Shown: positions 37,813-44,282 of the stretch, one piece after another | Position numbering within the stretch: position 1 is the first letter of the stretch | Layout of the letters: each line of letters begins with the position of its first letter | Source: an uncultured Pelagibacteraceae bacterium | Lineage (GTDB): Bacteria; Pseudomonadota; Alphaproteobacteria; Pelagibacterales; Pelagibacteraceae | Direction of reading: 5' to 3' | Assembly: GCA_902536085.1 (NCBI GenBank) | Contig: CACAWF010000006.1 | Coordinates: 1-51,229, forward strand | Length of the DNA: 51,229 nucleotides | Made by a program: the position numbers and the translations under genes | Notes under the pieces: generated by a model | Databases searched by the model: none | What the model was told of the DNA's origin: nothing | What the model saw: the letters and a program-made list of their open reading frames with translations, nothing else

Positions 37813-37860
37813 TTAGAAAAAGTCATCAAAAAAACATCCTTCACATTTAATTCTCAATTG

Positions 37861-38619
37861 ATGATTGAAGTATTGATTCTCTCTTTAATACAAGGCGTAA
37901 CAGAGTTTATACCGATTAGTTCGTCTTCACATTTAATACTGATTTCTGAGTTTATTAGATTTGATAATCAAAGTTTATCTATTGATGTAAGCTTACACAT
38001 CGGTTCTTTTTTAGCGATTGTCTTTTATTTCAAGAATGAAATAGCTAACTTTTTTTTAAATAAAGAACTTTTTTTTAAGATTTTTATTTCATCAACTCCT
38101 GTTTTATTGTTTGGATTTTTACTTGTGCAAACTAATATAATTGATGAAATCAGAAATATTAAAATAATTGCATGGACTACATTAATTTTTGGGATAATTT
38201 TACACTTTAGTGACAAGTTTAAATTGAAAAAAAATTTAGAGAGTGATTTCACATTGAAGTCTGCCTTATTTATTGGTTTTTTTCAAATTTTATCTTTAAT
38301 ACCTGGAGTTAGCAGATCTGGAATTACTATCACTGCAGCAAGAATTTTAAATTTTAAAAGAGTTGATGCAGCTAAAATTTCTTTTTTATTATCAATACCA
38401 ACACTTGCTGGTGTTTCAATATATGGTTTAAAAAATATAATCTCATCTCCAGATATTAATTTTTCCATTTTAAATTTTATCTCAGTTTTATTTTCATTTT
38501 TTTTTTCTTTAATAACAATAAAGTTTTTTTTAAAATTTCTTAAAAAATTTAGTCTACAGATTTTTGTTATTTATAGGATTATTCTTGGTCTAGGTTTGCT
38601 AATTTTTGCTTATTTATAA
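37861..38619 (+). CDS. uppP: Undecaprenyl-diphosphatase UppP (BacA)
   Basis: Recycles undecaprenyl pyrophosphate to the carrier lipid for peptidoglycan and surface glycans. Integral membrane protein of 252 residues with about eight hydrophobic segments. Catalytic motif 1 is GVTEFIPISSSSHL (about 12-25), motif 2 is GVSRSGITITAAR with the essential Arg-Ser. ATG 37861 is preferred to an in-frame TTG one codon upstream. It neighbours glycan genes and overlaps by 6 bp the end of a 28-aa ORF on the other strand. Confidence 0.95.
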   Translation: MIEVLILSLIQGVTEFIPISSSSHLILISEFIRFDNQSLSIDVSLHIGSFLAIVFYFKNEIANFFLNKELFFKIFISSTPVLLFGFLLVQTNIIDEIRNIKIIAWTTLIFGIILHFSDKFKLKKNLESDFTLKSALFIGFFQILSLIPGVSRSGITITAARILNFKRVDAAKISFLLSIPTLAGVSIYGLKNIISSPDINFSILNFISVLFSFFFSLITIKFFLKFLKKFSLQIFVIYRIILGLGLLIFAYL

Positions 38620-38700
38620 AATAATTGTTAAAAAAATCAAAAAAATAAGGATAATTATAAAAAATATAATTACTGACTTTTGTAAAGATAAATTTTTCAT
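38614..38700 (-). CDS. Tiny hydrophobic membrane peptide, 28 aa
   Basis: ATG at 38700 and TAA at 38614-38616. It starts MKNLSLQKS and then is an unbroken run of Ile, Phe and Leu to the end (about residues 10-28, containing IIFFIIILIFLIFL). The start overlaps the stop of the GT2 gene as ATGA, the mark of translational coupling. The tail overlaps uppP by 6 bp. It is probably a single membrane helix that anchors or regulates the glycosyltransferase. It could still be a chance ORF in very AT-rich DNA; hydrophobic codons are AT-rich. I know no family. Confidence 0.5.
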   Translation of the reverse strand: MKNLSLQKSVIIFFIIILIFLIFLTIIL

Positions 38701-39410
38701 TTCTTTATATTTAATAAAATTTTCTCAATAAAACAATATATTAGTGTGAATAAATATTTTGAGCCTAGCTCTTTAATTTTAAATTTTGACTTTCCCTTTT
38801 TTCTTCCTATCCAATTTATTGGAATTACTTTATATAAATATTTTCTGGATATAATTTTTAAAGGCATCTCAAGAAAGATATTAAAACTCTCAGAGACCAA
38901 AGGTAAGATCTCAATCAAAACTTGCCTTTTGTATATTTTAAAAGCATTTGTGTAATCATTATAACTATTTAAAAATATTATACTTACGAAAAAGTTAAAT
39001 ATTCTATTTAAAATAAGTTTTTGCAATGGGTAGTCTGATACTCTTGAAGATTTCATAAATCTTGATCCTAATACTGCATCTAAGTTCTCAGACTTTATAA
39101 GATGATAGTATTTCTTAAGATCTTCAATATCATCAGATTGATCGGCCATCATAATAACTAAAAATTCTCCAGTTGAATGGTTTATTCCAAAATTTATTGC
39201 GCCACCTAATCCTTTTTTTGTGTTATTTAATATTTTGAATTTTTGATTTTTTTGCCCTAAGAGTTTTGCTTTTTGTAAAGTGTCATCATCACTAAAATCG
39301 TTGATAATAATAACCTCAAAATCAATACCATCAAGATTTTTATCAAAATAATTAAATAAATCAGCTAAACTATTAGACTCGTTTCTAACTGGTATTAAAA
39401 TTGAAAGCAT
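38697..39410 (-). CDS. Glycosyltransferase family 2 protein
   Basis: 237 residues, GT-A fold. SILIPVRNESNSLADLF opens the protein, VIIINDFSDDDT (about 33-44) is the nucleotide-binding region, and MMADQSDD (about 91-98) is the DXD-like segment. It resembles dolichyl- or polyprenyl-phosphate sugar synthases. No membrane tail of its own beyond a weak C-terminal hydrophobic stretch. The gene is followed by the overlapping 28-aa membrane peptide, which may supply the anchor. It diverges from the first epimerase gene by 43 bp. Confidence 0.88.
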   Translation of the reverse strand: MLSILIPVRNESNSLADLFNYFDKNLDGIDFEVIIINDFSDDDTLQKAKLLGQKNQKFKILNNTKKGLGGAINFGINHSTGEFLVIMMADQSDDIEDLKKYYHLIKSENLDAVLGSRFMKSSRVSDYPLQKLILNRIFNFFVSIIFLNSYNDYTNAFKIYKRQVLIEILPLVSESFNIFLEMPLKIISRKYLYKVIPINWIGRKKGKSKFKIKELGSKYLFTLIYCFIEKILLNIKK

Positions 39411-39453
39411 AAGTTTGTTTATTTTTTATTATTTGTAAGATATTTATTTTACA

Positions 39454-40482
39454 ATGAAAATACTAATTACAGGTGGTTGTGGTTTTGTTGGTTCAAATAT
39501 TAGCGTTTATTTAAAAAAAAATTTAAAAAATGCTCAAATTTCTAGTTTGGATAATTTTTCTAGGCATGGGTCTAAAATTAACTTTAAGAGATTAAAAAAA
39601 AATAACATAAAAAACTTTCATATAAATATTGAAAGATTCAGTAAAATTAAAGTCTTGCCAAAATTTGACCTTATTATTGATTGTTGCGCTGAACCTGCAA
39701 TAGAGGCTTCAAGAAAAGATCCAGATAGAGTTTTTCAGACAAACCTTGTCGGAACTTTTAATATCTTAAAGAAATGTTTAAAAGATAATGCAAATATAAT
39801 TTTTTTATCATCTAGTAGAGTTTATTCTATTTATAAATTAAGAAAATTAGTAAATAATTTGAATTTGTCGAAACCTCTAAAAATCCGTAAACCAATAAAT
39901 GAAAACTTTGAGACTTCTGAACCTAGTTCGCTTTATGGATTTACTAAACTTGCTTCAGAAAAATTAATTAAAGAAATGTTTTTTAATACAAATTTAAAGT
40001 ACATTATTGATAGATTCGGTGTTATAGCTGGACCATGGCAATTCGGGAAACAAGACCAAGGATTTGTATCCTTATGGTTAGCAAAACATTTTTTTAAACA
40101 AAACCTTTCATATATTGGTTTTGGAGGGAATGGTAATCAAATAAGAGACGTAATTCATATTAACGATGTATGTGAAATCGTTTTAATGCAAATTAAAAGG
40201 TTAAATAAAATTTATAATGATACTTTTGTTATAGGAGGAGGAAAAAAAAATTCTTTGTCTTTGAAAGAGCTTACATCAAAATGTGAAAAAATAACTAAAA
40301 ATAAAATTAATTTTGCAAAAATTTCTGCAACATCAATTTACGATATACCTTATTTTGTATCTAATAATTCAAAGATTAAAAAAAGATACAATTGGCAGCC
40401 ATCAAAAAATATAGATGCTATTTTATTTGATATTCACAAATGGCTTATAAATAATAAAAGGTTGAAGAAATTTTTCAGATGA
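39454..40482 (+). CDS. NAD-dependent epimerase/dehydratase (extended SDR)
   Basis: 342 residues. The NAD motif GGCGFVGSN is at residues 7-15, the SSSRVY catalytic serine region and the YGFTK (YxxxK) motif are present. Resembles sugar-nucleotide epimerases of the CDP-paratose/UDP-glucose group. Its stop overlaps the second epimerase start by 4 bp (ATGA), so the two act together on surface sugar synthesis. The exact substrate cannot be assigned. Confidence 0.86.
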   Translation: MKILITGGCGFVGSNISVYLKKNLKNAQISSLDNFSRHGSKINFKRLKKNNIKNFHINIERFSKIKVLPKFDLIIDCCAEPAIEASRKDPDRVFQTNLVGTFNILKKCLKDNANIIFLSSSRVYSIYKLRKLVNNLNLSKPLKIRKPINENFETSEPSSLYGFTKLASEKLIKEMFFNTNLKYIIDRFGVIAGPWQFGKQDQGFVSLWLAKHFFKQNLSYIGFGGNGNQIRDVIHINDVCEIVLMQIKRLNKIYNDTFVIGGGKKNSLSLKELTSKCEKITKNKINFAKISATSIYDIPYFVSNNSKIKKRYNWQPSKNIDAILFDIHKWLINNKRLKKFFR

Positions 40483-41531
40483 AATTAGCTCTCATAACAG
40501 GTTCTTGTGGATTAGTAGGGTCTGAGTCGGCTATTTTTTTCTCAAAAAAAAATTTTAAAATATTAGGGATTGATAATAATTCAAGAAAATCTTTTTTTGG
40601 AAAAGATGGCGATATCACCTGGGTAAAGAATAAACTCAAAAAAGATCTTAAAGATTATGACCATTATAATACTGATATAAGAAATTTTAAATCTCTGAAA
40701 AAAATTTTTCAAAAATATAAAAATAATATTAAAATTATCATTCATGCCGCTGCCCAACCTTCCCACGATTGGGCCAGGAATAAACCTTTTATAGACTTTG
40801 ATATTAATGCAAAAGGGACACTCAATCTTTTAGAATTAACAAAATTATATTGTCCCAGAACTCCCTTTATTTTTATGTCTACTAATAAAGTTTATGGTGA
40901 TAATCCTAATTATTTACCATTAATAGAAAAAAAAACCCGATGGGAAATAAATCCAAATCATAAATTTAAGGATGGGATTAATGAAACAATGTCTATCGAT
41001 AGTTGCACTCATAGTTTCTTTGGTGCTTCTAAATCCTATGCAGATCTTATTGTCCAAGAGTTTGGAAGAAACATAGGTCTCAAAACAGCATGTTTTCGAG
41101 CTGGATGTATTACTGGCCCTAACCACTCAGGAGCAAAGCTTCATGGATTTTTATCTTACCTTGTAAAATCGTCTTTAAAAAATAAAACATATAATCTTAT
41201 TGGATATAAAGGCAAACAGGTCAGGGACAATATTCATAGTGAAGATTTAGTGAAATGTTTTTGGGAATTTTATAAAAGACCAGGATCTGGAAAAATTTAT
41301 AATACAGGTGGTGGTAGGTTTTCTAATTGTTCAATAATTGAAGCTTTAAATATAGTTGAAAAAATTACAAAAATTAAGATTAAAAGAAAAATTTTAAAAC
41401 AAAATAGAATAGGTGATCATATTTGGTACATAACTAGTATGAAAAGATTTAAAAAGGACTATCCTAAATGGAAACAAAAGTACTCAACCTTTAAAATAAT
41501 AAAGCAATTAATTAAACAATTTTCTTTTTAA
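40479..41531 (+). CDS. NAD-dependent epimerase/dehydratase, FGASK subfamily
   Basis: 350 residues. The NAD motif is GSCGLVGSES (about 8-17), MSTNKVYGD the serine/threonine region, and the site where extended SDRs have YxxxK reads FFGASK: Tyr is replaced by Phe. The following RAGCITGPNHSGAKLHGFL and YKGKQVRDNIHSEDLV segments are distinct and look conserved. I recall relatives with the same FGASK in polysaccharide clusters, so the change seems to be a subfamily trait. The 3' end overlaps the convergent membrane glycosyltransferase by 24 bp. Confidence 0.84.
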   Translation: MKLALITGSCGLVGSESAIFFSKKNFKILGIDNNSRKSFFGKDGDITWVKNKLKKDLKDYDHYNTDIRNFKSLKKIFQKYKNNIKIIIHAAAQPSHDWARNKPFIDFDINAKGTLNLLELTKLYCPRTPFIFMSTNKVYGDNPNYLPLIEKKTRWEINPNHKFKDGINETMSIDSCTHSFFGASKSYADLIVQEFGRNIGLKTACFRAGCITGPNHSGAKLHGFLSYLVKSSLKNKTYNLIGYKGKQVRDNIHSEDLVKCFWEFYKRPGSGKIYNTGGGRFSNCSIIEALNIVEKITKIKIKRKILKQNRIGDHIWYITSMKRFKKDYPKWKQKYSTFKIIKQLIKQFSF

Positions 41532-42749
41532 ATATCTAAAAAATTCTAAAGATAATAATAACTGCACTGGTAAAAAAATTAAACTATACCTAGGCAAAAT
41601 GAAAAATATAGAAAATAGTAGGATGTTTAAAAAATAGTAAATTGATAAGTACTGAAAAAAACCTTTTTTGTTAATTACCATTATGCCACCTATTAAACTC
41701 GAAATAGAAAGAAAAATTTTTGGTATAATATGAAATATATTATAATAATCTGGATATGTTGATTTCATATCGATAAATAAAAAAGAAAAAATTTTCAGAA
41801 AGTAGAGTTTTACATAAGCAACTGGATCCTGTAAAATATATTCAATAGCTTTATCTTTATAAAAATTATCAAGTTTAATTTCATATCTTTTATCTGTTTT
41901 AATTTTAAGTTCTTGTTTATCAAATTCTTTGTTTATAAAGTCTGCATTTCCCTCAATAATTTTCGATGGGTTATTACCTTTCAATAAATTGTATCCAAAA
42001 GATTTAGTTAGAACAAGAGTATCAAATTGTTGATAATTTCTATTTAGATAAGGGGAAATAACGAGAATTGTTATAAACAAAGATAAAAAAAGCTTTGTTA
42101 AGTTTTTTTTAAAAAATACAAAAAAATAAAAAACTGTGAAAAAATAAAAAATTAAAAATTCTCCCCTTATTAAAATTAATAAACCAGATATTATTGAAAA
42201 AAAAAAGAGGTATTTTATTTCCTGTTTTCGACTGTAAGTGATTAAAAAAAAGAAAAATAAAATTGTTAAAAATAATTGCAAAGTTACGGAAGAAATCTGT
42301 AACGAGGCATAAATATTTATCGGAAACAAAGCAAATATTGCTGTTAGAAATAATGCGCTTACTTCATCTTGACCAAAATTTTTTAGAATTTTATGAAAAA
42401 TATATATTGAAACAGTGCTTAAAATAATTTGAGAGAAAATTACTAAATACACGATGTTTAAAAAATTATTAGTTAAAATCTTTAATAAGTAAATATAATA
42501 AAAGTAAAGAGGGGGCATAAAAACTGTTGGAAGGACAATTTCACCAGCCTCTGCAAACTTTGGTGTTGCGCTAAATTCATTATTAACTACGTTGAAACCA
42601 AAAGTACCAGAAATTTCAAAATTATGAAGAATTATACCCCACTCATTATCCAAAAAACTGTCGCTAAAGATAAAGGCAAAAATAATCTTGATTAAAAGAC
42701 TTAAAAATATCAAATTGTTAATAGTTAATGCTTTTTTTCTTTTAATCAT
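41508..42749 (-). CDS. Membrane glycosyltransferase, PMT/ArnT-like (GT-C), 413 aa
   Basis: Polytopic protein with about ten hydrophobic segments. The first large loop has DNEWGIILHN (about 34-43), an acidic motif in the position GT-C enzymes use. The middle has typical short charged loops and KGNNPSKIIEG. Shorter than the 656-aa enzyme at 17548, with no large soluble tail. Probably transfers a lipid-linked sugar outside the inner membrane. Begins 4 bp after the 3' end of tRNA-Arg on the same strand. Substrate unknown. Confidence 0.75.
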   Translation of the reverse strand: MIKRKKALTINNLIFLSLLIKIIFAFIFSDSFLDNEWGIILHNFEISGTFGFNVVNNEFSATPKFAEAGEIVLPTVFMPPLYFYYIYLLKILTNNFLNIVYLVIFSQIILSTVSIYIFHKILKNFGQDEVSALFLTAIFALFPINIYASLQISSVTLQLFLTILFFFFLITYSRKQEIKYLFFFSIISGLLILIRGEFLIFYFFTVFYFFVFFKKNLTKLFLSLFITILVISPYLNRNYQQFDTLVLTKSFGYNLLKGNNPSKIIEGNADFINKEFDKQELKIKTDKRYEIKLDNFYKDKAIEYILQDPVAYVKLYFLKIFSFLFIDMKSTYPDYYNIFHIIPKIFLSISSLIGGIMVINKKGFFQYLSIYYFLNILLFSIFFILPRYSLIFLPVQLLLSLEFFRYLKRKLFN

Positions 42750-42753
42750 GATA

Positions 42754-42830
42754 TGGCGCGCCTGCTAGGATTTGAACCCAGAGCCTCCTGGTCCGTAGCC
42801 AAGCGCTCTATCCAGTTGAGCTACAGGCGC
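42754..42830 (-). tRNA. tRNA-Arg (ACG)
   Basis: Minus-strand tRNA of 77 bases with encoded CCA (complement of 42754-42756). The acceptor stem GCGCCTG/CAGGCGC pairs perfectly. D arm TAGCTCAACTGGATAGAGC, anticodon loop CTACGGA with anticodon ACG, T arm TGGG-TTCAAAT-CCTA. A34 is normally edited to inosine by TadA to read CGN codons. Confidence 0.97.
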
Positions 42831-42944: not shown

Positions 42945-44282
42945 ATGAGTTTAATTTCAATTATTGACAATAAAAAAAGAGCGTTTCTAAGCATATTGAT
43001 AGCTTTAATGCCGTTTAGTTTTATGGCTGGAAACATGATCTTAAGTTTAAATACAATTTTTCTAATTTTGATGCCAATTTTATTTTTTAGAAAGGATGTA
43101 TTCAGAATAAACTTTTTCATTTTAGATAAAATATTAATCACTTTTTTTATTTTAATTTTGATAACTGGTGCGATTAATAATTTCCATCTCTATCCTATTT
43201 ATAAAACTTGGGGCACTTCCATTGAAATATCTCTAGATGAATATTTTCTTACAATAATCAAATCTATTTTATTTCTGAAATATTTATTGTTATATATTGT
43301 TATAAGATTTTTAATTGAAAAAGATATTATCAATCTAAAATTCTTTTTTATTTGTAGTGCTATTGCATCTTTATTTGTATGTTTTGATATTTTTTTTCAA
43401 TTTTTTTATGGGAAAGATATTTTTGGATACGCTGCCACTGGGAGAAAATTATCTGGTCCATTTGGTGATGAATTAATTGCCGGAGGTTTTGTGCAAAGAT
43501 TTTCATTATTTGCTTTTTTTATAATTCCTCTATTTTATAATAGTCATAACAAGTACTTAAAATTTATTATCCCTTTTTTATTTATAATTTTTTTTACAGG
43601 GATCATACTTTCAGGAAATAGAATGCCTCTATTGCTTTTTGTTTTTGGCATTTGTTTAATTGTTTTATTTCAAAGACAAACAAGAAAATTTTTTCTTCCT
43701 TTTATAATTATTTTTTCGTTAATATTTTTTTTAATTTTTAACTTTAATAAATTTGTTAAAGATAATTTCTTAAGTTTTTATGGCCAAACGTCAGAGATGA
43801 TTAAAATTGTGACAGAAAAAGATTTTAAAAATGAAAATGCTCCGCAGTACTTTAAAGAATTTTCTACTTTTTATGATACTTGGCTAATTAACAAATATAT
43901 TGGTGGAGGGATCAAAAACTTTAGATATTATTGTCACAAAAGAGAGAACATAAATACAAATCAAAAATTTATTTGCAATATGCACCCTCATAATTATTAT
44001 TTAGAAATTTTAACAGAAACAGGAATTATTGGTTTTATATTGGTGTTGTTAATTTTTACGATCACATTATATAATTCATTTCTTAAAAAATATTTTTTAG
44101 ATACCCCTTTGAAATATAATAATATAATTATACCTTTTATTTTTTTATTCATTGTTGAGATATTTCCACTAAAAAGTACTGGTAGTTTTTTTACTACCGG
44201 TAATGCAACATATTTATTTTTAATTATGGCCATTTTAGTAGGGTTATCGGGAAAAGAAAATTTAATTGAAAAGAAAGATTAA
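42945..44282 (+). CDS. O-antigen ligase/polymerase-like membrane protein
   Basis: 445 residues with about 11 hydrophobic segments, typical of the Wzy/WaaL superfamily. It includes the large periplasmic loop (about 270-350) with a Wzy_C-like end: IGGGIKNFRYYC then CNMHPHNYYLEILTETG (conserved HPHN with Tyr and Glu). These histidine-containing loops are characteristic of O-antigen ligases. It joins polysaccharide to lipid A-core or polymerises repeats; which is not decidable here. 17 bp before the thiolase, possibly co-transcribed. Confidence 0.85.
   Translation: MSLISIIDNKKRAFLSILIALMPFSFMAGNMILSLNTIFLILMPILFFRKDVFRINFFILDKILITFFILILITGAINNFHLYPIYKTWGTSIEISLDEYFLTIIKSILFLKYLLLYIVIRFLIEKDIINLKFFFICSAIASLFVCFDIFFQFFYGKDIFGYAATGRKLSGPFGDELIAGGFVQRFSLFAFFIIPLFYNSHNKYLKFIIPFLFIIFFTGIILSGNRMPLLLFVFGICLIVLFQRQTRKFFLPFIIIFSLIFFLIFNFNKFVKDNFLSFYGQTSEMIKIVTEKDFKNENAPQYFKEFSTFYDTWLINKYIGGGIKNFRYYCHKRENINTNQKFICNMHPHNYYLEILTETGIIGFILVLLIFTITLYNSFLKKYFLDTPLKYNNIIIPFIFLFIVEIFPLKSTGSFFTTGNATYLFLIMAILVGLSGKENLIEKKD

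Follow-up and report, generated by a model that had tools for sequence, protein, structure and literature searches.

The window analyzed here is a 51,229-nucleotide stretch of an uncultured Pelagibacteraceae genome, whose assembly comprises 758,679 bases and is rated 72% complete. In the gap between a GT2 glycosyltransferase gene and the convergent uppP gene lies a small open reading frame (sORF) with the product MKNLSLQKSVIIFFIIILIFLIFLTIIL, 28 residues followed by a stop codon. This ORF had been put forward from inspection of the DNA in an original prediction that gave no strand; it is read from the minus strand, while over this interval the plus strand contains stops and is not an open frame. 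As described in that prediction, the sORF begins inside the GT2 stop codon (ATGA) and spans the whole gap up to uppP, which it even enters by 6 nt. The layout of the peptide was likewise borne out: a short, lysine-bearing polar head precedes a single long hydrophobic helix, with a best 19-residue Kyte-Doolittle mean of 3.71. Across relatives, the peptide ranges from 25 to 33 residues with one hydrophobic stretch, and its 24-residue core follows the pattern SLQK-S/A-V...FF...LT.IL-stop. The surrounding features are listed in Table 1.

Table 1. Features at the microprotein locus and its surroundings (window coordinates)
Feature	Position	Strand	Remarks
uppP/bacA (PF02673), convergent neighbor; start predicted	37858..38619	plus	last sense codon and sORF stop (TAA) are reverse complements
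sORF, gene for a predicted 28-aa single-helix membrane microprotein	38614..38700	minus	core SLQKSVIIFFIIILIFLIFLTIIL
GT2 glycosyltransferase (PF00535)	38697..39410	minus	stop and sORF start share ATGA; belongs to the block separating tRNA-Arg from the sORF
NAD-dependent epimerase/dehydratase (PF01370), in block	39454..40482	plus	
NAD-dependent epimerase/dehydratase (PF01370), in block	40479..41531	plus	
413-aa membrane protein, weak PMT_2/Alg9-like (GT-C) match below the curated cutoff	41508..42749	minus	start 4 nt past the tRNA-Arg 3' end
tRNA-Arg (anticodon ACG)	42754..42830	minus	sORF directly behind it on the same strand in GT2-less relatives
O-antigen ligase-like gene (PF04932, Wzy_C), neighbor on the far side of the tRNA	42945..44282	plus	

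Both the constant length and the third-position substitutions anticipated for a coding sequence were recovered among relatives. The length of the core up to the stop codon is the same in 102 distinct DNA versions, with one version (L049) ending differently. Owing to its different C terminus, L049 was left out of the coding test, as well as the helix-face and core-identity statistics. Across 84 nearest-neighbor pairs, differences at the first, second, and third codon positions numbered 441, 112, and 664, a distribution indicative of purifying selection, and pN/pS came to 0.336 for the full set and to 0.165 among the 19 closest pairs. The nonsynonymous fraction was 0.529, compared with 0.743 (standard deviation, 0.010) under the null model, which would introduce a stop codon in 47% of pairs. 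Control pN/pS values were 0.85 and 2.99 for the frame-shifted readings and 0.68, 0.43, and 1.94 for the antisense frames; because low antisense values can arise from shared codon geometry, the case for coding is built on the peptide itself and on the comparison with the null. At the level of individual loci, the ORF is present in all distinct Pelagibacteraceae loci that carry GT2 in this position (27/27). On these comparative grounds, the sORF is almost certainly a real protein-coding gene, and one that is not dedicated to GT2.

The distribution of the peptide was assessed with profile searches at an E value of ≤0.001. Within the order, profile A2 matched 228 of 297 genomes, 131 of 150 good-quality genomes, and 7 of 11 genera. 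Detection counts are partly circular where they were scored with profile A3, which includes some of the counted sequences; the order- and class-wide genome draws are less affected. Most genomes carry a single copy. Going by the order of the search table, 16 genomes of the family lacked a match at this threshold, as did every genome of the second family of the order. When six of these 16 genomes were searched again, one (G150) matched at an E value of 0.0014, and the other five returned nothing at an E value of 0.5. In four of the five, the best tRNA-Arg match was the TCG isoacceptor rather than ACG, and the fifth had no tRNA-Arg match; as none of them yielded tRNA-Arg(ACG), the region may simply be missing from these assemblies. 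In a class-wide draw of 385 genomes, matches beyond the family were limited to two weak, partial ones, neither of which resembles a homologue, and no comparable short hydrophobic ORF was listed behind the tRNA in f2 genomes that have tRNA-Arg(ACG). Searches of titles and the beginnings of abstracts, including those of SAR11 small-ORF catalogues, found no paper describing the peptide; such catalogues deposit sequences in supplements and databases, and an unnamed cluster may exist there. In the listed table of PMC2704228, tRNA-containing intergenic regions had been removed, which would exclude the sORF locus from that table wherever the ORF follows a tRNA.

The ATGA overlap and a short, soluble type of GT2 enzyme with no clear membrane tail had led to the proposal that the peptide is a separate anchor for GT2. 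Close relatives of this GT2 are found in uncultured Pelagibacteraceae and "Candidatus Pelagibacter," and a GT2 match anywhere in the genome (E ≤ 1e-50) occurs in only 17 of 150 relatives. We used uppP, which is present in 113/150 relatives, as an independent anchor. The uppP sample (L044 to L113) covered all 69 places in the window's genus and one from another family; dropping four loci at contig edges (L086, L094, L111, and L112) left 66 loci with an intact 3' end. The ORF is present at 61 of these, 17 with GT2 (window included) and 44 without GT2 within the fetched stretch. Among the five ORF-less loci, L113 comes from the other family, and L109 represents a second uppP copy, its genome being 7% contaminated. 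L092/L167 instead has a different 32-residue hydrophobic ORF behind tRNA-Arg(ACG), possibly a very divergent copy of the microprotein. At L101, the copy is frameshifted within a poly-T run, which may be an assembly error, and L100 has no recognizable copy.

At the 44 GT2-less loci, a different neighbor recurs. In 39 of them, the peptide gene shares the strand of a tRNA-Arg(ACG) and sits close behind it, with 9 to 60 nt typically separating the tRNA from the start codon; at L104, the tRNA end touches the ATG. A tRNA-Arg(ACG) gene upstream of the peptide gene is also found in other genera. Judging by the similarity of their starts, the O-antigen ligase-like gene occupies the same far side of the tRNA in many GT2-less relatives as it does in the window. 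The window's block of GT2, two epimerase genes, and the 413-residue GT-C-like gene (positions 38697 to 42749) lies exactly between the tRNA-Arg and the sORF, and cell-surface genes appear to have been inserted repeatedly at the spot between tRNA and sORF. An insertion of this kind can make an unrelated microprotein gene seem to be the partner of an inserted enzyme gene.

Across the loci fetched, no neighboring gene is constant. In three genera (g12, g14, and g15), the end of a DoxX gene adjoins or overlaps the peptide gene: at eight listed loci, the DoxX stop overlaps the sORF start as TAATG or lies 3 nt away. DoxX was found in all five genomes tested from these genera and in none of the 19 tested from g1, g13, g16, and g17, all of which have a peptide match. 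Dependence on uppP was rejected as well: five loci of the window's genus have some 1.3 kb between uppP and the peptide gene, and a search of the loci fetched from other genera detected no uppP next to the peptide gene in most of them.

These distributions bear on two readings that tie the peptide to a neighboring gene. In eukaryotes, DPM3 anchors dolichol-phosphate mannose synthase; it is larger than the sORF peptide and dedicated to DPM1. The window pair presumably invites the same interpretation, with a small membrane protein beside a DPM1-like GT2 that has no evident membrane tail, and the peptide would then be the anchor in a bacterial analogue of DPM3-DPM1. A GT2 of the PF00535 type with a short C terminus and a peptide made of one hydrophobic helix fit this proposal. 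So does the spacing at the 27 distinct GT2 loci: the ATGA overlap was conserved in 19 of them, and in the other 8 the peptide has its own ATG 4 to 9 nt past the GT2 stop, sometimes in another frame. Unlike DPM3, however, the peptide mostly occurs without its supposed partner, both at the 44 GT2-less loci and in other genera. Relatives with the GT2 gene and no adjoining ORF, which the original prediction had named as the observation that would count against it, do exist: at four SAR11 loci with a GT2 57 to 68% identical, no peptide adjoins. Three of these four genomes carry the peptide elsewhere, in two cases behind tRNA-Arg(ACG) and in the third with tRNA-Arg(ACG) on the same locus but further off. 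Finally, the consensus is nearly the same with and without GT2, with a mean core identity of 0.63 within the GT2-associated peptides and 0.58 between these and the GT2-less ones. We rejected GT2 anchoring as a general function and consider the anchor reading very unlikely; what stands of the original prediction is a membrane microprotein gene that is coupled to GT2 in the GT2-bearing lineage, where GT2 may have recruited the peptide secondarily. A second reading would have the peptide originate as an accessory of DoxX and keep working, once DoxX had disappeared, with a different redox or membrane protein. The stop/start-coupled pairs in g12, g14, and g15 are in line with such an origin, as is the arrangement in g14, where DoxX sits between the peptide gene and a tRNA-Arg some 0.5 kb upstream. 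The absence of DoxX from all 19 genomes of the other four genera, with the peptide matched in each, argues against DoxX dependence as a general function and makes this origin improbable, albeit less so than the GT2 anchor.

The conservation pattern of the helix offers a different view of function. Conservation entropy along the helix is periodic at about 95 to 100 degrees (permutation P = 0.0002, an approximate value, since the test permutes columns of related sequences and overstates their independence). As read from the entropy table, the conserved face consists of core residues L2, V6, F9, F10, V13, L17, L20, T21, and L24. Such a face suggests packing against a membrane partner; it could instead reflect self-association. 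In the mechanism we propose, the peptide would consist of a short, positively charged head and a single transmembrane helix running up to the stop codon. Upon membrane insertion, the head would stay in the cytoplasm, in keeping with the positive-inside rule, and the conserved face would pack against a partner in an inner-membrane complex found throughout the family. The role of the peptide there would be that of an accessory subunit or regulator, comparable to CydX, KdpF, or AcrZ, and its partner would probably be none of the variable neighbors GT2, uppP, thioesterase, and DoxX. In the window's lineage, a surface-glycan block lies between tRNA and sORF, and the GT2 coupling would provide co-translation rather than define the function.

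Small proteins with a single helix that serve as membrane-complex subunits or regulators have precedents in CydX (PMC4325964 and PMC6005532) and AcrZ (PMC7267776). The sORF peptide resembles CydX, KdpF, and AcrZ in having fewer than 50 residues and one (here predicted) transmembrane helix, and presumably in packing against a larger membrane protein, as its conserved face suggests. In contrast to these proteins, the peptide is without a database counterpart, with no significant Pfam or NCBIfam match among the 35 members scanned and no PDB chain matched at an E value of ≤10. Its gene also lacks a constant partner gene and commonly lies behind a tRNA gene. We rate the chance that the peptide serves a family-wide membrane complex, whether as accessory subunit or as regulator, slightly above even. 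The explanation that best covers the data as a whole, and which we regard as reasonably probable, is a Pelagibacteraceae-wide single-helix microprotein that is independent of GT2, linked to a tRNA, and accessory to an inner-membrane complex.

Other readings dispense with a membrane partner or with the protein itself. The size and hydrophobicity of the peptide would suit a membrane-active type I toxin-like peptide, or a nonspecific stress peptide that perturbs the membrane, such as YohP or TimP. A mostly single-copy gene at a locus that recurs across the family fits poorly with such peptides, and one conserved helix face is unexpected for a nonspecific membrane perturber; we judge this reading to be quite unlikely. 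It has also been considered that no protein is made and that the conservation belongs to an RNA element or tRNA trailer, given how often the ORF directly follows a tRNA. The codon-position pattern, the depletion of amino acid changes, and the lack of stops leave this explanation with hardly any credibility. Moreover, the peptide is retained even as its start codon falls in differing frames relative to GT2, and the Rfam matches in the window are two tRNAs only. Both a programmed frameshift and a C-terminal extension of GT2 were rejected, as the peptide is kept in other frames relative to GT2 and with TAA or TAG as the GT2 stop. A leader peptide is unlikely, as the next gene is the convergent uppP in the window's genus and a thioesterase gene in another, with no constant gene downstream.

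Returning to the accessory microprotein, its usual site directly downstream of tRNA-Arg(ACG) implies that the sORF is probably transcribed with that tRNA. A promoter scan was uninformative (32 sites versus 31.7 expected). Protein genes are known from tRNA operons of Escherichia coli, for example, tpr behind tyrT and the secG-leuU pair. What the sORF locus has in common with them is a protein-coding gene that immediately follows a tRNA in the same orientation, whereas the products are unrelated and the sORF arrangement recurs in several genera. A more far-reaching version would make the peptide a hitherto undescribed core microprotein of SAR11, one of the most abundant bacterial groups of the ocean. 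It would be transcribed with tRNA-Arg(ACG) and belong to a central inner-membrane complex (e.g., respiratory or translocation) as a subunit that is essential or nearly so. We advance this version tentatively, as possible rather than probable. If it is true, synthesis of the peptide would be tied to tRNA output and hence to growth rate.

SAR11 genomes are strongly streamlined, and a 28-codon gene under family-wide purifying selection in such genomes suggests that a core function of very abundant marine bacteria has been missed. By the comparisons made here, the sORF is an overlooked, family-wide gene for a predicted membrane microprotein of the Pelagibacteraceae (SAR11). The result is a defined microprotein family, open to testing, in which one helix face is conserved.

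Gene order around the microprotein gene varies further among relatives. Other surface-glycan or membrane genes lie between tRNA-Arg(ACG) and the microprotein gene at L063, L067, L077, L099, and L101. In a divergent group (L106, L107, L108, L110, and L095), uppP and the microprotein gene are separated by an O-antigen ligase-like gene roughly 1.3 kb long. The DoxX-microprotein loci of the three genera described above, with the TAATG overlap or 3-nt spacing, are L153 to L161. In most cases in one genus, a 4HBT thioesterase gene comes within a few bases after the peptide gene; thioesterase-like genes (4HBT, one member scanned) a few bases past the microprotein gene were seen in other genera at L130 to L134, L138 to L141, and L146 to L151.
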